IMG/VR virus record: IMGVR_UViG_3300031977_002582
Coordinates: 1-23,902 of that record
Origin: a virus
Length of the DNA: 23,902 bases
Reading direction: 5' to 3' (one strand)
Within the stretch, counting starts at the first letter, position 1, and each line of letters opens with the position of its first letter. Below the pieces are notes generated by a model. That model saw only the letters and a program-made list of their open reading frames with translations. It made no database searches and was not told the origin of the DNA. Positions 9,916-21,467 of the stretch are shown here, in pieces. The translations under genes and the position numbers were made by a program.

Positions 9916-11846
9916 ACTCTAGACTTCACCGATACTGCCTTGACGATAGACTCTGCCTCATCATAAGCAAGAAGATTGTTGTATTCTGCTTCTACAGCAG
10001 ACTGATTAGCAGGAGTAGCAAACACCTTGATGTAATTTGAAGAACCGAGCACAGACTGCACAGTAAGACCCTCTATCACAATTTTTCCTGTAGAGGGTTC
10101 ATATGATCCGATATTAGATACAACCACGTGACCGTCGATATCTACTAGTTCCAATTTGGTAGAAGGTAGTCGGTCAAATATCACAGGAACTCGGCCCTCA
10201 GGAGAAACTTTCACTCGGTCATCGAGTTTGTTTCTAATGAATACAGTCTTATTATCAACCGTGAAATATGTAGTTCTGATAACAGGGACGTTCACATCTG
10301 TTGGTTCCTCTAAAGGAACAGGGAATACCATCTCATGGTTTTCTTTCAGAGTTAGAATAGGAATGAATCTTTGCTGTAATTGTATTGTTGCTCTGGAAGA
10401 AAGAATAGAAGGATCAGAAGCATCAACTTCTGTCAGCATATTAGACCTACGGAATACTTGCTGAAACTTTCCTACATTTTTATCGAAATAATTTTCAACC
10501 GTGGTTCGAACTCTCTTACTCACAGAGGATTCACTCAGTGCACTCATATTTGGATTGTATTGATAATAGAGTTCTGTTGATATGTAAGTCGTAGTTGGTG
10601 CTACGAACTTGATGATAAAGGACACTACAGAGAAGTTCCTTCCGAGTTCACGGATCTCTTCCCTAAGTTCACCAATTGCTGTGCTGTTTAAATCTGCCGA
10701 CCACTTGATAGAAATGTAGACTGCCCCGAAGTCTCTCTTTGCGTCATCCTCTCCTCCCCAGCAAACAATATCTTCAATGAAGTTAGCATACTTACGGAGG
10801 ATCAGTGCTTCATAGTCTAAAGGAGTAATCATCCTGTTCTGTGAAGCATACTGGAAAGGTGCTCTCTTGCGAATAGATTCGACTGATTCTCTGTCACCAC
10901 CACCGGATGATCGAGTCAGAGTAACAACACTAATCTCTGCTTCATCAATCTTGTTATTACCAAGCATGATGTCTTGAATAGGAAATAGAGTAGCGGCACC
11001 GTTTGCATCAGAACCATTGGTCTTGAGATAATTTATTCTAACGACGTTTCCTGCAACAGGAGTTTGTCCGAGTGAATTATTATCACCGAATGTCAATTCA
11101 TAGAAACGATTGGGAGACTCTCTCAAAACATAGAGTTGGGATAACTCGTTGATAGTAGATGCCTCAAAGACATTGTTGTAGACTTTGTATGAACCTTCAC
11201 CAGATTCTTCTGCTACTGCTGCAACACCCTGATTATCGTATACTTTGACGATAACAGTGGATGTATCGATATCCTCATCAGGAATAACATACACTGCATC
11301 GGAACTATTGTCGACCAAAAAGTCGAGAGTTCTTTCTTCGCCTTCAAAGACTCTGATGGGAGCATTTTCATCGTTGAAGAGAGAAAGTTCGAATACACCA
11401 GAACCATTATTCTCCGCAAGAATAGTCTCTCGATTTGAGTAAACATAGTTAAGATCATCAACCGTGCCCCTCAACTTCAGTTCACCAGGAAGAATGTTGT
11501 ATCTTGGTTCGAGATTCATTGATGCTGCTCGAGAGGGCTCGATAATGATATTTGCAGAGATAGTTGCCTGTGAAGAGGACTTAGAAGTCGGAAGATATCC
11601 CAAAGACTCTGCAAGACCAACAACAGAGTTGCGCAACTGAGCAGTCGTCAGATACGACTCATTGAGAGCAAAGTTGGCGATCAGGCCGTTGAAGTGTGTG
11701 TTGTGTGCGAGGACATCCAATAGATTGGACAACGCAGATCCTTCAAAATCATAATCCTCGAACTCTTCTCGTTGTCGTAGATATGATTTGAGGTTTTCTT
11801 TGATCTCAAAGAAATCTAGTTCTGTAGATTGAATCGTGGTTGCCAT
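9912..11846 (-). CDS. gp6: Baseplate wedge protein gp6
   Basis: This 644-aa protein is close in length to T4 gp6 (660 aa), which forms the inner ring holding the baseplate wedges together and is distantly related to gpJ-type baseplate proteins. The N-terminal region matches the family well: DYDFEGSALSNLLDVLAHNT (about 32-51), then a helical stretch with FALNESYLTTAQLRNSVVGL (about 60-79) and ESLGYLP. A central APFQYASQNRMITPLDYEAL motif (about 328-347) is the typical gpJ/gp6 signature 'AP..Y..QNR.VT..DYE'. The start overlaps the gp25 stop by one base (TAATG) and the stop overlaps the next gene (ATGA). It therefore sits in one coupled gp25-gp6-gp7-slot wedge cassette. Confidence 0.94.
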   Translation of the reverse strand: MATTIQSTELDFFEIKENLKSYLRQREEFEDYDFEGSALSNLLDVLAHNTHFNGLIANFALNESYLTTAQLRNSVVGLAESLGYLPTSKSSSQATISANIIIEPSRAASMNLEPRYNILPGELKLRGTVDDLNYVYSNRETILAENNGSGVFELSLFNDENAPIRVFEGEERTLDFLVDNSSDAVYVIPDEDIDTSTVIVKVYDNQGVAAVAEESGEGSYKVYNNVFEASTINELSQLYVLRESPNRFYELTFGDNNSLGQTPVAGNVVRINYLKTNGSDANGAATLFPIQDIMLGNNKIDEAEISVVTLTRSSGGGDRESVESIRKRAPFQYASQNRMITPLDYEALILRKYANFIEDIVCWGGEDDAKRDFGAVYISIKWSADLNSTAIGELREEIRELGRNFSVVSFIIKFVAPTTTYISTELYYQYNPNMSALSESSVSKRVRTTVENYFDKNVGKFQQVFRRSNMLTEVDASDPSILSSRATIQLQQRFIPILTLKENHEMVFPVPLEEPTDVNVPVIRTTYFTVDNKTVFIRNKLDDRVKVSPEGRVPVIFDRLPSTKLELVDIDGHVVVSNIGSYEPSTGKIVIEGLTVQSVLGSSNYIKVFATPANQSAVEAEYNNLLAYDEAESIVKAVSVKSRV

Positions 11847-12370
11847 TATCGTAACCTGTTCATATTAATTTTTGTTGTGATTTCCTGCCCAAGGTTTTTG
11901 ATTCTACACGTCACATAGAGCAGGAATGTGTGTTCTGCCTCAGATGAATTTACTGAGTAGAAAAATACGTTGTCGATACCACGAGGGACTTCTCTGTCTG
12001 CTCCGGCATCATAAAATTTTACATCTAAGACTTCGACTCTTGGTTCCCATGTTTCGATAGCAGTTCTTACTACATCCCTTGCGTATGGTTCAGATACTGT
12101 CGTGTTCAGTTCAAACAACAGTCGTCGAAGGTTAGACCCGAACTCTGGTTGAAATGGTTTCTCGTAAAAGTTTGTCAGCAATATCGTAGAGATACTCTGA
12201 TCAATTGCCTTGAGGTCGGACTTCTTGAACACATCTCCTCTACGAACACCGTCGGGAAATACTGTTCCCGACTTACGTTGAAAGACCAAGTCCAGATCAC
12301 GATAATTCTTGTGAACAGTCGTCGTGATAGAATTGTCGTCAATTCCTGGTTGTATTCTTCGTAGAGTCAT
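11846..12370 (-). CDS. gp25: Baseplate wedge protein gp25
   Basis: This is a homologue of T4 gp25 (132 aa here extended to 174 aa), the small wedge protein that links the baseplate to the sheath; the gpW/gp25 family also occurs in type VI secretion (TssE). The core is clear: AIDQSISTILLTNFYEKPFQ (about 55-74), FGSNLRRLLFE (77-87), and TAIETWEPRVEVLDV (103-117) with the family's conserved EPR at 109-111. The extra residues are mainly at the N-terminus and in the final beta strands. It is the first gene after a late-promoter motif and heads the gp25-gp6-gp7-slot cassette. No good Shine-Dalgarno is visible; the leader is A-rich. Confidence 0.94.
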   Translation of the reverse strand: MTLRRIQPGIDDNSITTTVHKNYRDLDLVFQRKSGTVFPDGVRRGDVFKKSDLKAIDQSISTILLTNFYEKPFQPEFGSNLRRLLFELNTTVSEPYARDVVRTAIETWEPRVEVLDVKFYDAGADREVPRGIDNVFFYSVNSSEAEHTFLLYVTCRIKNLGQEITTKINMNRLR

Positions 12371-12404: not shown

Positions 12405-14795
12405 TCAAAGGTCAGTTATCTCTAGAAGATCATTCTCTTTCATGACTGTCCTGTTGAAGTATGTCCCAACTTTTTGCTCAAACATCCCCCGATACTCTTC
12501 GTAGAGGACTGGCAAGTAGATACCGATCTGAACTGTCATGATATCATCAGGTCGAGTCACATCGTAGTCTAGGAGCAACTCTCTGAAATAAAAGTTATCA
12601 CGAATGAACAAAGCACATTCCCAAGTCTTCGTGTAATTGATTTTACCTCTGCTATCGAATAGAGTGTAATAGACCAGCATACCTTCGTGCTTTCTTTGGT
12701 TACATGGGTGTCCACTAGAAAACAGTCGGTTCTTGATCCCTCCATCTTCATTACGGTATGGTTCTCTCCAGAACTTTTTCTCCGGATCCTCTCCTGGTTT
12801 GTAATGCTCACGAATACCTGAACTGGGTTCGTAATAACCCTCCGTGACTGCCAGTCGGAAACCATCAAACAGAGGGGAACTGTTTACTCCCTCCATAATC
12901 TGAGCCTGACACACCCAATACCTTGCCAGATTGACACGGTCTTCTGCGATCGGAACTGCTTCCAATGTAGACTTAGATCCTACAGCACCAAGGAAAGTTG
13001 CCATCGAAGTCGACTTAGAGAGTTTCGTAGAATTCGAAATAGGAGACTCTTGACGTAGCGGATTGTATTTTGGATCAACAAGGATCTTTCTGCTCTGGGC
13101 CTTATTCCTTGATGTAAAGGTCTTAGAGGCACGTTCCACAGGATTACCCAGAAGAGTGTATCCGTATCTCGACTTGAAGTCGTTTCCTGATCTCTTAATC
13201 TCATAAGGAGGAGGCGGAGTCGCCGACAAATACTTATCGGACAAACGATTCTCAAACAGTAATTGTGATGTTGCCTTTTTATTATCACACTGCATCTCAG
13301 GGCAGGTCTTAGGATCATTTGCCTTATCCATTGTCCTGAGTTTAGATCTGATATCATTGGTGTCAGGGACAGTCTGAAAGTAGTGAGAATAGACAGAGGG
13401 TTTGTAGAGTTTTTTCTCAATCCATCCGTCACCGTCGATCATAACCTTACGAACAGCAAAGGGTGAAACTTTGTTCCATACCTCAAACCAATCTTCGTTA
13501 GTGGTGTAGAATGGGGCAATGGGGATTGGATCGATTGCAGAACGATCACCCTTGCCATCCCATTCATAGTTCTCTAAAACATTGAGTGGTTGTTCGTATG
13601 CAGTATTGTCCTCAACTTTCCATCCCCACTTGAACTTGTAGTCGGGGACTTTTTTGATAGAAGATTTCTTTGACTGACCAGTTTTCTCAGGAACTTCAAC
13701 ATTTGCCTCGTAGTCTGCTTGCCCCGCAGCTGATCCTGATCTAGTGGCAGAACCACCTTTCTTCGCGGTTTTAGCATATTCAGATCTGTAAGCACTATGA
13801 GATTCTTTGGCCTTCTGAGCATATTTCGCAGTCCATGCTTCCAATGCTCTTCCGATTAAGTTGCCATGAAAGACAACATTCTCCCCCTGATCATTTCTCT
13901 TATTTCCCTTGCCTCCAGATGGACCAGTAAACAGGGTTCCGAGATAATGGAAGTTGTCACCTCCAATCTTGCCTTTGCGACCAGCAATATTAATCTTCTC
14001 TGAAACAAGTGAGATACCATCTGCAGTAGAAGCAGTGAACTTGCCTTCTGCAGTATTACGAACGTGACGATGTGCGTTAGAAATGATATCACGATTACTG
14101 AGCATACGGATATCTTTCTTAGTGATTATCCTTTTATCACCGACGATGAAGTCATTGTTGTCACCGTAGATCTTCGTGTCCTTGTTACCGCGAACGATAG
14201 TCTGATGAGTATCTCCAACTTCAGTGATGAAAGTTCCCTTAATTTGGTTATTGTAATTATTTCCGACGGTCATGTTGTAAGTTCCGGAAACATCCACATT
14301 GTAGTTTCCGTTGACCTTCATATGAAGGTTTCCGTCATAAGCAATGTGTCCCTCTCCCGTGACAGAAAGATTATGATCACCATTAGTGACATGAACAGTA
14401 TTTGCTGCAGAAGAGACGATCACCGTTCCGTCTGGTTGAATCTCAATACCTGCACCAGTGTGATGCTTGAGCAATATCCTTTCATTTCCTGGAGTATCGT
14501 CGATCTCAAAAGAGTGACCGATAGGAGTTTCCATTGCATAATTGAAAGGATAGATTGAAGGACTAGGAGCAGACACGTCGAAGTTCATGTCCAGAGATCC
14601 ACCCTGAACATTTACTTTATTGATCCTTACACCACGACCTGCGGCACTCTGACTGTTACCGAACCAGTTGTATCGTTTGGGGAATTCCCCAGTAGGATCC
14701 GCAGTCCCGTCTAAGGGGATGCCAAGAGTTTCTTCTTTCTCTCGACCACCCTCTGACTTGAGACGTTCTTCTGATGTATTTCCTTTTTGTGCCAT
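12405..14795 (-). CDS. Beta-helix cell-puncturing spike protein (gp5 C-terminal-like) with large C-terminal extension (796 aa)
   Basis: Residues about 84-135 form a beta-rich entry region with GAGIEIQPDGTVIVSS. Residues about 139-221 then consist of short repeats of roughly eight residues with Gly/Asp/Asn turns and alternating hydrophobics (GNYNVDVSGTYNMTVGNN and similar). This is the pattern of the trimeric beta-helix needle formed by the C-terminal part of T4 gp5 and of VgrG spikes. A Gly/Lys/Ser-rich linker (about 290-385) leads to a C-terminal region of about 410 residues I do not recognise. That region contains five cysteines (C498, C503, C629, C698, C727) and a HPC...H cluster near 696-703. 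No OB fold and no lysozyme are present in this protein; both are in the gene at 17361. The start overlaps the amidase stop by one base (TAATG). The needle role is strongly suggested by the repeats; the tail domain is unknown. Confidence 0.87.
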   Translation of the reverse strand: MAQKGNTSEERLKSEGGREKEETLGIPLDGTADPTGEFPKRYNWFGNSQSAAGRGVRINKVNVQGGSLDMNFDVSAPSPSIYPFNYAMETPIGHSFEIDDTPGNERILLKHHTGAGIEIQPDGTVIVSSAANTVHVTNGDHNLSVTGEGHIAYDGNLHMKVNGNYNVDVSGTYNMTVGNNYNNQIKGTFITEVGDTHQTIVRGNKDTKIYGDNNDFIVGDKRIITKKDIRMLSNRDIISNAHRHVRNTAEGKFTASTADGISLVSEKINIAGRKGKIGGDNFHYLGTLFTGPSGGKGNKRNDQGENVVFHGNLIGRALEAWTAKYAQKAKESHSAYRSEYAKTAKKGGSATRSGSAAGQADYEANVEVPEKTGQSKKSSIKKVPDYKFKWGWKVEDNTAYEQPLNVLENYEWDGKGDRSAIDPIPIAPFYTTNEDWFEVWNKVSPFAVRKVMIDGDGWIEKKLYKPSVYSHYFQTVPDTNDIRSKLRTMDKANDPKTCPEMQCDNKKATSQLLFENRLSDKYLSATPPPPYEIKRSGNDFKSRYGYTLLGNPVERASKTFTSRNKAQSRKILVDPKYNPLRQESPISNSTKLSKSTSMATFLGAVGSKSTLEAVPIAEDRVNLARYWVCQAQIMEGVNSSPLFDGFRLAVTEGYYEPSSGIREHYKPGEDPEKKFWREPYRNEDGGIKNRLFSSGHPCNQRKHEGMLVYYTLFDSRGKINYTKTWECALFIRDNFYFRELLLDYDVTRPDDIMTVQIGIYLPVLYEEYRGMFEQKVGTYFNRTVMKENDLLEITDL
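14133..14381 (-). repeat. Degenerate octapeptide-type beta-helix repeats in the spike gene
   Basis: Residues 139-221 of the spike protein are about ten degenerate repeats of roughly eight residues, with Gly, Asp or Asn at turns and Val/Ile/Met at alternating positions. Examples are VNGNYNVD, VSGTYNMT, VGNNYNNQ, IKGTFITE and VGDTHQTI. The repeat is at protein level; the DNA has diverged. In T4 gp5 such repeats form the intertwined three-stranded prism of the needle. Confidence 0.8.
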
Positions 14796-15976
14796 TACTG
14801 AAATTTCTCTTCAAGTTCTGGGTCTTTTGTTAAAACCGGATCACCGTAGTTGTTCGAAGTTTGTTCAAGGATGTCTGACTTTGTCAGTGCTGCATCTTTC
14901 TCTGGATTTTCATACAAACTGATCTTATTGAACTTTGCCCAGACATAGTCACGAACATCGAACCCAGGATCACGCATATCAGGATTAATCTCACTATGAC
15001 CCAGTGCTTGTCCTCCTGGGTGATGTCGATAAAACGCATCGAAGATATGATACAGTGACAGGTATTGTGATCGAGTGATAGCACTCGCATCTACTTCCGG
15101 CCCAATTGCTTCCTCACCACTTGCTGCTGTGAGACCACCCACAAGACAGACACCAACAGAAGGTCCGTCATGACCGTTTTCTGGAGTATGCTTGCCCGCA
15201 GCATTTAACGAAACATCTCTCTCGATAGATCCATCGCGATGAACGACATAATGATATTTGCCACCAGGAATTTGATCTTTGTTCAGATTAGCATTCTGAT
15301 AGGTTTCAGAGAAATGAACAATAATCTCTGAGATATCTCGTGTGACATTAGTAAACTCAGCATCGAGTTCTTCTGCTGATGATACAAAGTCTTCTCCTGG
15401 TTGAAGTTCTTGCTTGTCATTGCTTCCGATTTCATATGGAGCAGGACCACCCGTCCTTTGTTTCGGGGTAACGATCTCAACCGGATCGTCGACAGGAGCA
15501 TTGGTCATTGCTCTTGCGACATTATCGATAGAACTAGGTTCAACTGTAACCTCAATTCCTTCCACGTTCATTGCCTTCGGAGAACTAAATGTGCCGACAG
15601 ACTTTTCGAATCTTCTAGTTGCAGTAGTTTGGTGTTCAACAGTTTTAGCATAGGAAGTAGTGACACCTGCCTGAGCAACAGTAGGTTTATTCCCTGCCAT
15701 GCCAAAGAAATTGGTTGCTACCAATATCTTTCGAATAGAAACTACAGGCAGTGAAGAATGGGGGGCAATCATCTGAGCAGCTTTCAGTGGAAGATCACTA
15801 GGAACTTTACCCCCATTATCGATGATAGCATCCTCTATCATCTTCTTAATCTCTTCTCTACGAGCTTCCGGAATCATGCCAGCAGCAATGGATGAATTCA
15901 GAGCATCGATGCCTGATTTCTTTACCATAGCACGAGCAATAAACTCAGTTCCAAATGAATGATCTGCAATTGCCAT
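14795..15976 (-). CDS. Baseplate-associated N-acetylmuramoyl-L-alanine amidase (amidase_2/PGRP type, 393 aa)
   Basis: Residues about 213-348 are an amidase_2 domain, which cuts the bond between MurNAc and L-Ala in peptidoglycan using zinc. EIIVHFSE gives the first zinc ligand, H221. YHYVVHRDGSIERD (241-254) is the core strand with Y241. GPSVGVCLVGG (271-281) matches the T7 lysozyme 'NSIGVCLVGG' strand closely. GHSEINPDMRDPGFDV supplies H327 and D336, the His/Asp pair used by AmpD-type enzymes (T7 has Cys instead of Asp). The first 200 residues show no domain I know and may dock the enzyme to the tail. The C-terminal 45 residues are polar and charged. A strong GAGGAG ribosome site precedes the ATG, which overlaps the upstream stop (TAATG). 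Position between the hub and spike genes implies a virion enzyme for entry rather than a lysis endolysin, although no test of that is possible here. Confidence 0.9.
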   Translation of the reverse strand: MAIADHSFGTEFIARAMVKKSGIDALNSSIAAGMIPEARREEIKKMIEDAIIDNGGKVPSDLPLKAAQMIAPHSSLPVVSIRKILVATNFFGMAGNKPTVAQAGVTTSYAKTVEHQTTATRRFEKSVGTFSSPKAMNVEGIEVTVEPSSIDNVARAMTNAPVDDPVEIVTPKQRTGGPAPYEIGSNDKQELQPGEDFVSSAEELDAEFTNVTRDISEIIVHFSETYQNANLNKDQIPGGKYHYVVHRDGSIERDVSLNAAGKHTPENGHDGPSVGVCLVGGLTAASGEEAIGPEVDASAITRSQYLSLYHIFDAFYRHHPGGQALGHSEINPDMRDPGFDVRDYVWAKFNKISLYENPEKDAALTKSDILEQTSNNYGDPVLTKDPELEEKFQ

Positions 15977-16893
15977 TACGGAGTCTCCTCAATAGGTGAC
16001 ATAAAGTCGAGGATACCATCAATTCCCTTCTTCACAAACTTAATGCCATCATGCTTCTTCGGTGGCCAAGAAGGTTGAGCAAGTGCTGGGAACTCATCAT
16101 CATACATTCCCTTGTCACCTTTCCACCCTTTCAGGAAGGTTTTGATACTCTCAGTTCTTCCTGAGTTCACAACCAACCACGGGAAATTGTTACGTTCATT
16201 ATCGAGATTGTAGATCTCGTGATCATTGTGAACGGGAGGATCTTCTTCGTTTGTCTCTGGTTTTGCTGCAGTCATTTCTTCTAAGAACTCTCCACCGACA
16301 GCATCCGTGATAGTTTCATACAACCACCGACCATCACCTATTGTTCCTGTATGATCTTCTTCCTTAAACTCCCAAACATAACCAGCATATTTTCCACCGT
16401 CACCTCTTTTGCGAGCATCAGGTCGAACATGAGTGAGATAAGAATTTTGTAAACTGGAAGAAGATGACCCCCAGCTAATGTATCTTTCAGGATTAACGAC
16501 GTCATCATAAATGTGCTTTGTGGCACCAGTCTTGTCTACATGATAAAATTCATCACCAAAGATGTGATCGTTTATGGAATTCTCATAATCGGGAATCTCC
16601 ATCTCACCATGAATGTAGAGAATACCAGTTCCATATGTCAGGTGCTGGATGTTAGGGACTTCCTCGGTGAGTGACATCCAACCGTCTTGCCTGTCGAAGT
16701 GATCATCGTCACCTTCTTGGGCGATACGATTACCAAACCTTTCATAGTCTCGATAACCATAACGACCAGTATCACCAAGATTGTCGATTAACCATTGTGA
16801 TATCGCACCACTATTACTGACATCAATAACGCCGACTGTTCCGTATAAATTCGCAACGAAGTCATTGAGTTCTTGTAAGTTTACTGCAGCCAT
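15976..16893 (-). CDS. Unrecognised protein between hub lysozyme and amidase (305 aa)
   Basis: I recognise no family. The protein is acidic in its middle, Trp-, Tyr- and Gly-rich, and has no signal peptide or membrane segment. Visible features are an ISQWLIDNLGDTGRYGYRDY stretch (about 31-50), a HLTYGTGILYIHGEMEIPDY strand-like region (about 84-103), and a basic/Pro-rich C-terminus (WPPKKHDGIKFVKKG) ending in IEETP. A GGTAAG ribosome site lies just upstream of the ATG and the stop overlaps the amidase start (TAATG), so it is translationally coupled to the amidase. Co-location with hub, lysozyme, amidase and spike makes a baseplate-hub or spike accessory role plausible; this is inference from position only. 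Confidence 0.85.
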   Translation of the reverse strand: MAAVNLQELNDFVANLYGTVGVIDVSNSGAISQWLIDNLGDTGRYGYRDYERFGNRIAQEGDDDHFDRQDGWMSLTEEVPNIQHLTYGTGILYIHGEMEIPDYENSINDHIFGDEFYHVDKTGATKHIYDDVVNPERYISWGSSSSSLQNSYLTHVRPDARKRGDGGKYAGYVWEFKEEDHTGTIGDGRWLYETITDAVGGEFLEEMTAAKPETNEEDPPVHNDHEIYNLDNERNNFPWLVVNSGRTESIKTFLKGWKGDKGMYDDEFPALAQPSWPPKKHDGIKFVKKGIDGILDFMSPIEETP

Positions 16894-16902
16894 TTATCTT
16901 AC

Positions 16903-17364
16903 CTAAATGTCAATCGGAGTTTGATCAGTGATATTGTCTACTGATTCGATAACAACAGCACCAGATTCAACTTTCGCAATCTCAATTTGAAGATCTAATT
17001 CCTCTTGGAGATCAGATAACCATGTTTCTCCGACTACTTCTGAATCCACTAATCCCGACAATGAGACACCGAGTCCTAAGACTCCGTAGGTGTTGATTGA
17101 ATCTATTGCAATTTCAGCGTCCTGCGGTCCAGTGACAATTACTGTTGTGTCATAGAAGTCATTGTAGATCTCAGACTGAGTAAGTGCCTCGACAGTAGCA
17201 AGATCAGGATAGACAGGAGCTCCAGTTTGAGGAGCAGCTAGTGCTCCGGAATCTAGTCCGACATGACCGAAACCGTCAGAATCTGTTGCTTCGTATGCCG
17301 CAGAGATCCCTTCATACACACCTCCGACTTCTTGCGTCACAACTTCGGTGAATCTAATTTTCAT
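16903..17364 (-). CDS. Unrecognised acidic protein (153 aa) after the hub lysozyme
   Basis: This 153-residue protein is strongly acidic, with few Lys or Arg. It shows a beta-rich N-terminus (MKIRFTEVVTQEVGGVYEGI) and a later TYGVLGLGVSLSGLVDSE segment that leads into a helical stretch WLSDLQEELDLQIEIAK. There is no signal peptide, membrane helix or Cys. It overlaps the gp5-like gene by four bases (ATGA) and ends 9 bases before the 305-aa gene. I do not recognise the family. Given its place it may be a small structural or chaperone-like component of the hub, but there is no direct evidence. Confidence 0.82.
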   Translation of the reverse strand: MKIRFTEVVTQEVGGVYEGISAAYEATDSDGFGHVGLDSGALAAPQTGAPVYPDLATVEALTQSEIYNDFYDTTVIVTGPQDAEIAIDSINTYGVLGLGVSLSGLVDSEVVGETWLSDLQEELDLQIEIAKVESGAVVIESVDNITDQTPIDI

Positions 17365-18281
17365 AGTGCTCCACCTCCATTAAATAACCCATTTGCTTTA
17401 TCACCAGCAGCATGCTCATCAAATCTGAGATTAGAGTCAATGTAGTATTTTTGAAGAATAGCAATCATACCTGTCTTGATAGGAATACCGTCTAGTTTCT
17501 CACCATACTCTGTGCCTTCGATCTCTTGAGCACGGAGTATCTTACCATATGCTGTCCTATGAGTAGTATGTAGTTCATGCATAACAAACATTAATTGCAC
17601 GTCACCACTGAACGGAGTTTTCTTTGGTAGAATCCTTTGCGAGTATTTCACGAATCGTTGATATCTTCCACCTTTCCATCCACCGATGCCAAAACCATTT
17701 CCTTTCTGTGAAGGTTTCAGTCCACTGATCTCCTGCAATACTGCTACCATAGCAGATGCCTGTTTAGCATTTAGTCCATTGTCGATGAAGAAGTCTTTTG
17801 CTTCTCCTGCACTAATAGTCTTTTTATCGTCAGCACCACTAAACTCTTGAGTTTCCCATCCTGTTAGTTTGGGATCTTCTCCCTCAAAGTTTGATTGTCG
17901 ATAGTCAAGTGCAAATGGATTAGTAGAGATATCATCTCGATTTTCTGACTGAACTGATGTTGGATATTCTGTATGCGGAAGTGAACCCAACACAAGAGGC
18001 AACTGTGAGTTTTTACCATCAAGGAAGATTCCGAATACCAGAGCACCTGCTAGAACGTGCACACCTGTCCCGTATCCAGACACACCGAATGAGGAAGAGT
18101 TGACCATGACCTGTGCCCATGGTAGGTCTCTCTGTGGGATATCTTTAGTCGACTCACTGTGGATACCGAATATGCGAATCTGGACCCTACCCTCAAAACC
18201 AGGAGGAGGATTCGCATTGATGACATTAGCAATAAACCATCTCGTGTTGTCACCGTAGTATTCTGAAAGTATGGTCTTCAC
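17361..18281 (-). CDS. gp5: Baseplate hub protein gp5: OB fold plus phage-tail-lysozyme domain, without needle
   Basis: Residues about 14-105 match the OB-fold domain of T4 gp5 and VgrG: FEGRVQIRIFGIHSE (29-43), IPQRDLPWAQVM (48-59), GYGTGVHVLAGALVFGIFLD (69-88), then QLPLVLGSLPH. Residues about 155-295 resemble the phage tail lysozyme (Phage_lysozyme2) family, with GLNAKQASAMVAVLQEISGL (169-188), GFGIGGWKGGRYQRF (196-210) and QLMFVMHEL (229-237). The family's ESGL motif is ISGL here: the Glu is one residue earlier (E184) and I185 takes its place. The protein stops at 306 aa; T4 gp5 (575 aa) continues into a beta-helix, which here is in a separate gene. The GTG start overlaps the hub gene stop (GTGA) with GAGGAAGG upstream; no nearby ATG would keep the OB fold. 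Partner expected: the gp27-like hub encoded just upstream. Confidence 0.9.
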   Translation of the reverse strand: MKTILSEYYGDNTRWFIANVINANPPPGFEGRVQIRIFGIHSESTKDIPQRDLPWAQVMVNSSSFGVSGYGTGVHVLAGALVFGIFLDGKNSQLPLVLGSLPHTEYPTSVQSENRDDISTNPFALDYRQSNFEGEDPKLTGWETQEFSGADDKKTISAGEAKDFFIDNGLNAKQASAMVAVLQEISGLKPSQKGNGFGIGGWKGGRYQRFVKYSQRILPKKTPFSGDVQLMFVMHELHTTHRTAYGKILRAQEIEGTEYGEKLDGIPIKTGMIAILQKYYIDSNLRFDEHAAGDKANGLFNGGGAL

Positions 18282-19705
18282 GGAGAACCTTCCTCATCAT
18301 CAAATATCTTAGCAATAGTCGCAACCACTTCGTGCTTTCCGTTTGAAAGATAATCTCTTCGAAGGTCTAATACAATGTAGTGCCCAGTCCTTCGTTCTTC
18401 GAGAGCACCTTCTAACGAGGGATCGTCCTCAATTTTCGTACTGTGCCAGAGAACAAAGATAGGATCACCGCAACTCAGTTCTTCCTTCGTAAAATTGTAT
18501 CCAGAAACAATGACATCCATTGCATTACGATACAGTGCTGAGATTATTGTACCCTTTCTCATTTTGTTGAGTAGCATACTAGGGTCTACCACATCGTGAT
18601 ATCCAGCAGCATAACCATATGTACCATAAGAAGTGATAGTATTGATGTATCTTGCGTCGAACTCAGCAGGTTCTTTTGTCTGTTTCTGAACAGTCAGTTT
18701 ATCTCCTGGGTCATATACAGTGCCCATAGTTCCTGCTCCACCCATTGCTTCCAGCAACTCACCCAAGTTGTGATGCCTTAACATCCTTTGATTTGAATAT
18801 GGGTCGAGATTAGAAATCTGTGCTCCTGTCACACCTTGGTTGATCATTTGCAGAGAGTTTTCTACTCCGTCGGATTTGTATGCATTAATCGTAGATTTGT
18901 TTGCTTTGTATGTAGATCCCTGATTCACCGCAGACTGAGATTGAACGAAAGAATACTTGGCATTTTGCGGACTCTTTCCCTTAAAAGTAACTGCGTCAGG
19001 TCTTGTCTTGGTCATGATCTGTTTAATCATGGTCGGAAAGTGACCGAACCGAACTGTCCCTTGATGATTCTTTTGATCCCACACTGAACACCAGCAAAAC
19101 ATTGGTCCTCCGTAGAGTCCCGTTGCCCTTTCCATCAACCAACTAGTGGCATCGAGAGGGCTGATGTATGGTAGAATGAGTTTGACTGGACCTTGTGCTG
19201 AAGGTTCTCCTGGCCAGTAATCATCCTTTTTCTCTACCTTTACGTCAAGGTAGTCGTCCAACACTTTTTCTGCTATGTCTTCTAACTGATCATAGTAGGA
19301 ACGACTAACCTTCACCAATGCGTCTCGATATGCGTGGGAAGAGATACAGTTAATAGTAAAACCAGTTGTCTTGTTATTGATCTTTTGTTGTCTTACAATA
19401 GAAACAGCACGGAGTTCTAACTCGAATTCGTTTGGGACGTGTTCCTCATCAGATCCCATGATTTTCAGTTTGACCTTTTCTGTGCCCTGAAACTGAATTT
19501 CTTCGTTCAAAAGACCTAAGTCATCGATCAGTGTGATGTTCACCGTGATGTATGGTTTAAACAGAGACTCAAAGATAGCAACTTCTCCGATAAAATTTAT
19601 GAGGTCTCTTTCCTTAATGCCTCGTTCAGCAGTAAGTGAACACTCTAAAATTTTGTATTCAGAAGTTGCTTGTTTGACGTCGCCTTGTCGTCCGTATGAT
19701 GACAC
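18278..19705 (-). CDS. gp27: Baseplate hub protein, gp27-like (475 aa)
   Basis: The hub trimer at the centre of the baseplate joins the tail tube to the gp5 spike. The N-terminal region (about 15-120: YKILECSLTAE, FESLFKPYITVNITLIDDLG, VKLKIMG) looks like the first tube-like beta domain of gp27/VgrG proteins. The middle (LPYISPLDATSWLMERATGL, about 178-197, then FCWCSVWD) parallels the T4 'STFENYLSYVREVA...FVFVWQD' segment. The C-terminus (GDPIFVLW..., GHYIVLDLRRDYLSNGKHEV) parallels T4 'PGVKIIFND...FYVDEVIHELSNN'. It is longer than T4 gp27 (391 aa), mostly through a 240-390 insertion. The start is GTG, two bases after the gp53 stop, with an AGGGA site upstream. The next gene is its partner gp5, coupled by GTGA. 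Identification is by segment matching and synteny. Confidence 0.85.
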   Translation of the reverse strand: MSSYGRQGDVKQATSEYKILECSLTAERGIKERDLINFIGEVAIFESLFKPYITVNITLIDDLGLLNEEIQFQGTEKVKLKIMGSDEEHVPNEFELELRAVSIVRQQKINNKTTGFTINCISSHAYRDALVKVSRSYYDQLEDIAEKVLDDYLDVKVEKKDDYWPGEPSAQGPVKLILPYISPLDATSWLMERATGLYGGPMFCWCSVWDQKNHQGTVRFGHFPTMIKQIMTKTRPDAVTFKGKSPQNAKYSFVQSQSAVNQGSTYKANKSTINAYKSDGVENSLQMINQGVTGAQISNLDPYSNQRMLRHHNLGELLEAMGGAGTMGTVYDPGDKLTVQKQTKEPAEFDARYINTITSYGTYGYAAGYHDVVDPSMLLNKMRKGTIISALYRNAMDVIVSGYNFTKEELSCGDPIFVLWHSTKIEDDPSLEGALEERRTGHYIVLDLRRDYLSNGKHEVVATIAKIFDDEEGSP

Positions 19706-19707
19706 AA

Positions 19708-20700
19708 TTATCCCTGCTTCAATAAGTTATTAAATTCTCTAACGATAAATCGAATAGAGTCTTTCTTGATGACAGAAATGGTTTTCTGATCTCTATTAAG
19801 TTCAACAAGTCTCTGATAGTTAGAGACAGAATTAATTGTATTGATGTCTGAACTGACAGTTACCCATGGTCCTGGTCCACCAGCAGAATCATCTTCATAA
19901 CCACCTGCTTCTGACATTTCGATCGGAACGTCTTTAAAGTGAATCAGGGGGTAAGGGGCATGCTTGCTCCATTTTGGATAGATCCAATTTCCCTCATAAT
20001 CCTGATAGTGATGAGGAGCATCAAACTCATCTATCACCTTTGCTCTGTTTCTTTTATCTCGAGCAATTTCCATTTCAGCATATCGTTTTTGCGGTATGTA
20101 TTTCGGATCATTCAAAACAATCGCGGCATCAACTTCATCTATCACTTCTACAACCTGCTCTGCTCCGCGCACTCCCTTAGCATCTGTCGTTATCGTTCCC
20201 ATTCTTGGATCAACAGATAAGATCTTGCCAGCAGTGTATGAGTTTTGGAACCAGACATAATTGCCAGGAACAAAGAATGTAGATTGCGCGAGAGGTTTTT
20301 GATCACCTTCTGCTAACCAGAGTATTTTAGGTTTATCACCGTCATCAAATAGTCTCGGTGCTTTATCCTGTGTGACACCATAAGTCTGTATGACAGTGTT
20401 GGGATAATATTCCTGTGCTTTCGGCCAGACATCAGCGTCACGAATCGGCCATCCGTTTGTTCTGAGGTGGTCGTTTAGGAGAAAGAATGTCCAGTAATAG
20501 TTTGGTGTCTCATACAATCTGTATGATAATTGGTCTGGTCTTTCTCCATTCTGAATTTCGATATTAATATAATAAACTTCATACTTGCGTACTTGCTCGA
20601 GAATATCGACTGCGGTTCCGATATGCTGAAACTGAGTGAGTGTCTTCTCGTTTCCAAATCTATAATCTACTACTGGGAAATTTTCGAAATAATTAGACAT
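19708..20700 (-). CDS. gp53: Baseplate wedge protein gp53
   Basis: This is a homologue of T4 gp53 (196 aa), the last wedge protein to join, which links wedges to the hub. The diagnostic block is at about residues 40-86: YEVYYINIEIQNGERPDQLS, then YRLYETPNYYWTFFLLNDHL and RTNGWPI. At 330 aa it is much longer than the T4 protein. The extension (about 130-330) includes STFFVPGNYVWFQN followed by a beta-rich region, and a Gly/Pro-rich stretch (YEDDSAGGPGPWVTV). The ATG at 20700 is preferred: it lies one base after the gp48 TAA, next to GGATGGTAAT, and gives the expected short MSNYF start. An upstream in-frame TTG at 20712 would add only four residues and lie inside gp48. Confidence 0.93.
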   Translation of the reverse strand: MSNYFENFPVVDYRFGNEKTLTQFQHIGTAVDILEQVRKYEVYYINIEIQNGERPDQLSYRLYETPNYYWTFFLLNDHLRTNGWPIRDADVWPKAQEYYPNTVIQTYGVTQDKAPRLFDDGDKPKILWLAEGDQKPLAQSTFFVPGNYVWFQNSYTAGKILSVDPRMGTITTDAKGVRGAEQVVEVIDEVDAAIVLNDPKYIPQKRYAEMEIARDKRNRAKVIDEFDAPHHYQDYEGNWIYPKWSKHAPYPLIHFKDVPIEMSEAGGYEDDSAGGPGPWVTVSSDINTINSVSNYQRLVELNRDQKTISVIKKDSIRFIVREFNNLLKQG

Positions 20701-20701
20701 A

Positions 20702-21436
20702 TTACCATCCAAGCGCGATGTCTCTCTGCAAGAGAGTCTTCTCTTCAGTGAAACTTAATTGAAGGTCTGTCTCAGCAAACCAATGATTTCTATTTTGCTT
20801 TGCTAATACTCCTCCTCCGTACGACACGTTTGCCGCAGTGAGATACATGAAATGAAAAAACGGAGGAACGATTGTTTGCGCATCGGCACCCAGAAACATC
20901 TCGATCTTAAACTTATCTGGAAAACGATAGAAAATGTTTGGACCTTCTCCGTCCTTTTCCGGATACATATGAGTTCTAAACTTTTTGATAATATCTTTGA
21001 TAATATCTGGTTCATCAGAACTGAGCGGTATGAACTTGAAGGTGAAACCGATTGACCTAAGATTAGGTTGCTTAAACATAGATCGGGTATCGGGGTTAGG
21101 TGCTTTACCACTAGCAAGTCGTTTAGCATTACTACCAATTTTAGTGACAATATCTGATGCTAATTGATCTAACTTAGCAGCTGTTGTGTCATCAGGGTTA
21201 TATCTTTCACCATACAGTTTGGCAAGTTCTTCCAAGTTGCCCGTTGCTGCTGCTTCGATAATCTGCCCTGTCATCCCCTGATCAAAGTTTTCGTATGTGA
21301 TATTATCATTGAAGGTAACTGTCGGGGGTAAAGGAAGTTCAATATCTTCTCCCGCGTATCCACCATTATGCTTGACAGGGGTGAACCGAATGAATCCTGG
21401 TCTACGACTGTCGTCCTTTGGAAACTTTATGGTCAT
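20702..21436 (-). CDS. gp48: Baseplate tail-tube cap protein gp48
   Basis: gp48-type proteins sit on the baseplate hub and start tail-tube polymerisation; they are related to the tube protein. The recognisable part is residues about 117-160, DTRSMFKQPNLRSIGFTFKF then IPLSSDEPDIIKDIIKKFRT, which matches the tube-cap pattern 'F.F.P....EA..I..I...FK...YP'. It is followed by a C-terminal beta domain (VSYGGGVLAKQNRNHWFAETD). Length is 244 aa against 364 in T4. The position next to the tape-measure gene and before hub genes fits, since in T4 genes 29 and 48 are adjacent. The ATG at 21436 is chosen; an in-frame GTG at 21445 would add three residues and cannot be excluded, as neither has a clear Shine-Dalgarno. 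The related initiator gp54 is the main alternative. Confidence 0.83.
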   Translation of the reverse strand: MTIKFPKDDSRRPGFIRFTPVKHNGGYAGEDIELPLPPTVTFNDNITYENFDQGMTGQIIEAAATGNLEELAKLYGERYNPDDTTAAKLDQLASDIVTKIGSNAKRLASGKAPNPDTRSMFKQPNLRSIGFTFKFIPLSSDEPDIIKDIIKKFRTHMYPEKDGEGPNIFYRFPDKFKIEMFLGADAQTIVPPFFHFMYLTAANVSYGGGVLAKQNRNHWFAETDLQLSFTEEKTLLQRDIALGW

Positions 21437-21467
21437 CGTTATCACTAAATAGTTAAAATAGTCATTC

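Follow-up and report, generated by a model that had tools for sequence, protein, structure and literature searches.

Probable replacement of the hub lysozyme by a tail-associated amidase at cell entry in a large lineage of uncultured T4-like viruses

The 23,902-base IMG/VR record IMGVR_UViG_3300031977_002582 (hereafter, the window, meaning this whole stretch), which derives from a T4-like virus, uncultured and probably marine, carries in its baseplate operon a gene encoding a 393-amino-acid (aa) protein with an amidase domain (14795-15976; like all features of the window given below, it lies on the minus strand). Judging from comparative sequence evidence, it is likely that, in a large uncultured lineage, a tail-associated amidase of this type has taken the place of the lysozyme of the hub protein gp5 at entry. 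This reading is carried by the position of the gene and its conservation, the intact zinc ligands of the amidase, the loss of the catalytic glutamate from the gp5 lysozyme, and the presence of a separate endolysin in relatives. A previous sequence-only reading of the window had delimited the open reading frame (ORF) exactly as we find it.

Conservation of the amidase gene and its zinc site

The 393-aa protein matches both Amidase_2 (PF01510; 30 bits against a curated cut-off of 26, E=7.5e-7) and the PHROG family 822 'amidase' (phrog_822; E=1e-17). Similarity searches of cultured phages with this protein gave only T7-like endolysin domains among the matches listed. Residues ~200-352 (14921-15379) make up a predicted T7-lysozyme-like zinc amidase domain, modelled by AlphaFold2 (AF2) with predicted local distance difference test (pLDDT) scores mostly of 85-97; the model superposes on T7 lysozyme (1lba) with a Z score of 15.2 and 2.6 Å over 128 residues. 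The predicted zinc ligands are H221 (15314-15316), H327 (14996-14998), and D336 (14969-14971, a cysteine in T7 lysozyme), and Y241 (15254-15256) is the predicted catalytic tyrosine, corresponding to Y46 of the T7 enzyme. The alignment with T7 lysozyme spans the region from Y241 to the end of the protein; in it, H327 and D336 fall on zinc positions and Y241 on the tyrosine.

Scans for close relatives with the amidase, the spike, and the neighbouring 305-aa protein gave nothing useful, and conserved anchors were needed. IMG/VR was scanned with gp6 and then with gp5 as neighbour genes to collect loci; part of the locus set was anchored on gp6 only, on neither gp5 nor the spike, and a second set was recruited with gp5 models that include the lysozyme domain. 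In ~85 loci (~50 of them distinct, and ~20 in the first set), the amidase is encoded within the virion structural genes, directly between gp5, with its OB and tail lysozyme domains, and the beta-helix spike. Such retention of the gene in one place goes far beyond chance. Most of these genes are translationally coupled and usually overlap by 1-4 bases on either side of the amidase, the spacing being as a rule -1 or -4 bases towards gp5 and -1 to -20 bases towards the spike. The window itself has a 305-aa orphan gene directly upstream and the spike gene directly downstream of the amidase, in agreement with the placement within a hub/spike operon proposed earlier.

The zinc triad H/H/D is present in 86 of the 89 testable loci. 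We counted changes along a tree of 51 distinct rows, inferred solely from gp27 and the OB domain, and left L015, L024, L048, and L049, which have damaged or split genes, out of the counts for both amidase and lysozyme columns. H221, H327, D336, and also H242 show no change at all, and Y241 a single one. The ratio of nonsynonymous to synonymous divergence (dN/dS) of the catalytic domain is 0.05-0.11 where dS is measurable, these being rough values since dS is often saturated. The branch of the window is long (2.07), which leaves its exact position in the tree unsure.

Wherever the contig runs >0.8 kb further, every gp5 with a lysozyme domain is followed by a member of the amidase family, and for gp5 ORFs devoid of that domain the amidase family comes next in 1 of 36 only (L049, with a split gp5). 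This co-occurrence is essentially that of one lineage, not of many independent events. Sister loci (L003, L034, L035, L038, L039, L041, and L044) encode a short gp5 of ~180-230 aa with the OB domain alone and have no amidase; there, a protein of 395-460 aa replaces the spike. The amidases of L001 and of Stenotrophomonas phage YB07 were rejected as counterparts, each being encoded by a gene of its own away from the baseplate operon. A search for psbA, whose presence would point to a cyanobacterial host, found no copy in the long relatives.

Loss of the catalytic glutamate in the gp5 lysozyme

In the window, gp5 (306 aa, 17361-18281) combines an OB domain (Gp5_OB, E=1.4e-6) with a tail lysozyme domain that matches Phage_lysozyme2 (PF18013; 37 bits against a cut-off of 28.2, E=4e-9). 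The lysozyme domain of its homologue L022 aligns with that of phi29 gp13 (3csr, E=1.3e-8), with the glutamate of its ES motif falling on Glu45 of gp13, a residue whose catalytic role is cited in PMC10394673. At this place, gp5 of the window has Ile185 (17727-17729). The lysozyme had been described as altered and located two genes upstream of the amidase; the alteration is real, but gp5 is the third gene upstream, with two orphan genes intervening.

The window is not isolated in this respect, as glutamate is absent from the catalytic column in 74 of 85 loci, where 11 other residues occur instead (A, V, I, K, T, Q, S, C, R, L, and M). At least 26 changes affect this column among the 51 rows, compared with a median of 12 for lysozyme columns; it belongs to the 8 most changeable columns out of 130. 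Columns of the fold, G198, W202, Q229, L237, and Y280 among them, do not change at all on this tree. Because these residues are unchanged while the glutamate column changes so often, the alignment indicates a gp5 lysozyme that has kept its fold and whose catalyst is free to change. By parsimony, the presence of glutamate requires 4 changes on the tree.

The sequence-only reading had left two options, namely that wall cutting at entry passed to the amidase or that both bonds are cut together. Since the glutamate is gone in the large majority of loci while the zinc site is kept in nearly all of those testable, takeover is favoured for the window and most of its relatives. Cutting of both bonds may hold for a minority, L022, L026, L028, L032, and L163 among them, which have kept both the lysozyme glutamate and an intact amidase site. 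We consider it rather unlikely that cooperation is the general rule, with gp5 retaining some glycan cutting through another residue and the amidase adding a second bond. Apart from those loci, it would find support in E236 of the lysozyme domain, which is nearly invariant (1 change) and leaves some room for a residual, non-canonical lysozyme activity, and in the dual activities known from the hub of phage A-1(L) (PMC10966104) and from the type VI secretion system (T6SS) effector TseP (PMC11893102). However, replacement of the general acid/base glutamate by 11 different residues looks like free drift and not like the rise of a new conserved catalyst, and the adjacent gp5 positions, 183 and 184, lack conservation.

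Degenerate amidase copies and a separate endolysin

Some members of the lineage keep an amidase domain in the operon after the loss of its site. L015 has retained the lysozyme glutamate, and its amidase-derived domain is still recognisable (E=6e-13 to the family model) with the site lost; L048 has G/K/E in place of the amidase ligands and has apparently lost the lysozyme glutamate too; and the truncated contig L024 has D/G at two ligand positions. Because these dead domains are retained in place, they suggest a structural component rather than a lysis enzyme.

Lysis, in turn, appears to be served by another gene in some relatives. Each of the four relatives of 116-155 kb has a separate T4-type (GH24) lysozyme of 148-176 aa, as does one 60-kb record, and the E/D/T residues are in place in the four GH24 endolysin sequences that were read. 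Fourteen long records contain exactly one Amidase_2 each, the baseplate one, and no hydrolases of the M15_3, SLT, or M23 types were found in seven long records. Given the separate intact endolysin of the four long relatives, lysis would not need the amidase there. A role in lysis, which had been named as a route by which an entry function could be refuted, is weakened by these endolysins, with the reservation that the window itself is a fragment. That the amidase is an endolysin merely placed in the baseplate operon is improbable: its domain does resemble T7-type stand-alone endolysins, and Amidase_2 is common among lysis genes, but this would leave unaccounted for the conserved location in the hub/spike operon, the extra N-terminal part of 200-590 residues in most homologues, the retained dead copies, the endolysin of the long relatives, and the fusion of an amidase to gp5 in Vibrio phage VP-1 (see below).

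The same dead copies (L015, L024, and L048, without zinc ligands), together with the variable catalytic lysine position, could also be taken as signs of a mainly structural protein, a plug, chaperone, or adaptor placed between gp5 and the spike, whose amidase fold would serve in peptidoglycan binding or in assembly and catalyse little. We regard this as the least probable of the alternatives, since the three unchanged zinc ligands and the low dN/dS of the catalytic domain point to selection for metal binding, and probably for catalysis, in most members.

Proposed role at entry

We infer that the gene product is a virion-associated N-acetylmuramoyl-L-alanine amidase located in the puncturing apparatus of a myovirus from the T4 superfamily, and the same holds for its docking, its catalytic activity, the bond that it cuts, and the timing of the cut. 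Its non-catalytic N-terminal part would fix the amidase to the gp27/gp5/spike assembly. Upon sheath contraction and passage of the spike through the outer membrane, the bond between N-acetylmuramic acid and L-alanine (MurNAc-L-Ala) would be cut by the T7-lysozyme-like zinc domain on its tether, which would open the peptidoglycan for the tube. The amidase would be the likely working wall cutter at this step because the gp5 lysozyme has mostly lost its catalytic glutamate; the latter domain, Glu-less in most of the lineage, may survive as a fold, either as a scaffold or as a wall-binding domain. The wider proposal is that the whole uncultured T4-type lineage changed its entry chemistry, the hub lysozyme having become non-catalytic (perhaps serving in wall binding or amidase docking) and the separate amidase of the spike complex having taken over, with the loss sometimes falling on the amidase instead, as in L015. 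To this we give an even chance.

As proposed earlier, the ~200 N-terminal residues of the window protein contain no recognised domain. Residues 1-92 (15701-15976) are predicted to be helical and are a candidate anchor (AF2 pLDDT of ~60-77 for residues 20-90), and residues 93-189 (15410-15700) are a predicted disordered tether (pLDDT mostly 28-39). In relatives, the amidase proteins owe their greater length (400-950 aa) to a larger helical N-terminal part that changes fast; in L055, such a part is a separate gene of 295 aa adjoining a 206-aa amidase. Neither BLAST nor hhalign detected homology between the N-terminal region of the window protein and those of relatives, and the AF2 model of L014 (pLDDT of 47) was too poor for interpretation. 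We also considered the 305-aa and 153-aa orphans of the window as detached N-terminal halves of the longer relatives, an idea that is unsupported.

Several observations weigh against replacement of the lysozyme by the amidase or limit its reach. Docking is unsupported for the window protein, because its N-terminus has neither detectable relatives nor a confident structure. The site, previously called apparently complete, does have the metal ligands H221, H327, and D336 together with Y241, but M334 occupies the position of T7 K128, where such zinc sites usually have a lysine. This position is variable in the family, and the active-site lysine of the T7 lysozyme/AmpD type is not universal among Amidase_2 enzymes. 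L118, L119, L120, and L152 have a glutamate inside an otherwise Glu-less clade, their nearest neighbours having glutamine, which may reflect regain, late retention, or chance drift. In L048 (4858-6893), where both hydrolases are apparently dead, the virus must use another wall opener or none. Finally, the window is a 24-kb fragment, and any endolysin or other hydrolases that its virus may possess lie outside our view.

Neighbouring genes in the operon

Read leftwards, the operon of the window comprises the tube cap (20702-21445), gp53 (19708-20712), a gp27-like hub protein of 475 aa (18278-19705; phrog_350, E=1e-34), gp5, a 153-aa orphan (16903-17364), the 305-aa orphan (15976-16893), the amidase, the central spike, the baseplate wedge protein gp25 (11846-12370; PF04965, E=5e-13), and gp6. 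The amidase gene overlaps its neighbour by one base (TAATG) at both ends, such that the amidase stop codon shares its final base with the start of the spike gene. Its Shine-Dalgarno sequence, GAGGAG (15985-15990), 8 nt before the ATG, is a good one (duplex of -9.3 kcal/mol). It is not the strongest of the operon, as had been thought, since the 153-aa orphan gene (-14.0 kcal/mol) and gp5 (-9.7 kcal/mol) have stronger duplexes.

The two orphans, which have no Pfam or PHROG match, separate gp5 from the amidase, two genes that adjoin in nearly all relatives. No relative of the 305-aa protein was found in viral contigs, and the 153-aa protein had no match in related loci. The spike (796 aa, 12405-14795) is a beta-helix protein similar to the C-terminal part of gp5 (phrog_430, E=1.4e-29; Gp5_trimer_C, E=7e-4, below the cut-off). 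It looks like a fusion of two genes that most relatives have apart, one for a spike of ~490 aa and one for a second protein of ~200 aa. The amidase protein is not itself a spike protein of the T4 gp5 type, as it matches neither Gp5_OB nor the trimer domain, which belong to the genes at 17361 and 12405, respectively.

Comparison with known systems

For T4, the tail lysozyme is described as the sole enzyme known from the virion (PMC3004832), which agrees with the earlier statement that T4 has no amidase in its baseplate, although a precedent exists in the T4 superfamily (gp5 of VP-1, below). T4 gp5 has the same operon role, with an OB domain, a glycan-cutting domain, and a beta-helix spike, and cuts the wall at entry. 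In T4, however, all of this is a single chain with an active GH24 lysozyme and no amidase, whereas in the window the OB/lysozyme, the amidase, and the spike are separate genes and the lysozyme is of the PF18013 type, devoid of the glutamate. This domain family is shared with the N-terminal lysozyme of phi29 gp13 (3CSQ/3CSR), which in contrast to the window has kept Glu45. T7 lysozyme (gp3.5) and related endolysins have the same amidase fold and zinc ligand positions but are stand-alone lysis or regulatory enzymes, with cysteine instead of aspartate as third ligand and without an N-terminal extension.

Baseplates or spikes with more than one hydrolase are also known. The hub gp15 of the Anabaena myophage A-1(L) carries several hydrolase domains, a lysozyme-like one included, of which the endoglucanase and peptidase domains have been shown to lyse host cells (PMC10966104); unlike here, the enzymes are different, all lie in the hub chain, and no amidase is reported among them. 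TseP combines a zinc amidase and a lysozyme carried by a phage-tail-like spike (VgrG2), but it is a secreted antibacterial effector with both activities in one chain (PMC11893102). In other T4-type phages, OB proteins of the gp5 kind bear different wall-cutting domains, namely CHAP in Rhizobium phage RHph_I46 (L004, 14001-14867) and a VanY-like domain in Methylophilales phage Melnitz-3 (L005, 10868-11908). In Marine virus AG-345-P14 (L011, 10220-12559), a gp13-like lysozyme motif seems, by eye, to lie in a 779-aa protein encoded just upstream of the hub gene and not in gp5.

The hub enzyme looks exchangeable. The puncturing device of T4 is the textbook lysozyme drill, and the lineage described here suggests that the enzyme of the drill can be exchanged: among related hubs there are VanY-like, CHAP, phi29-type lysozyme, and amidase domains, and in this case one enzyme apparently replaced another, the old one persisting as a dead fold. 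The lineage offers a testable comparative system for asking what makes the cutting of a particular bond necessary to a phage at entry. It also calls for caution, as such gp5 proteins should not be annotated as active 'tail lysozymes'.

The closest parallel comes from a cultured phage. In a structure search of viral models, the first match was the 'baseplate hub subunit and tail lysozyme' of Vibrio phage VP-1. This gp5 (AWY10192) has Gp5_OB at residues 39-94, Amidase_2 at 418-538 (PF01510, E=2.6e-12), and Peptidase_S74 at 907-959. Near it, the VP-1 annotation also lists a lysozyme and an N-acetylmuramoyl-L-alanine amidase, each as a gene of its own (L200, 35184-38907). As is proposed for the protein of the window, the gp5 of VP-1/VAP7 (Ackermannviridae, Vapseptimavirus) brings an Amidase_2 domain into the central spike complex of a myovirus of the T4 superfamily. 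It differs in joining the OB domain, the amidase, and the S74 tail in one polypeptide, in which no PF18013 was found, and the identity between the two amidases is low (27% over 131 aa). The joining of an amidase to gp5 in cultured VP-1 therefore supports a role at entry and at the same time limits the novelty of our finding: virion-associated lysins are a known kind, and amidases fused to gp5 already exist in cultured phages. The parts are ordinary; their combination is unusual.

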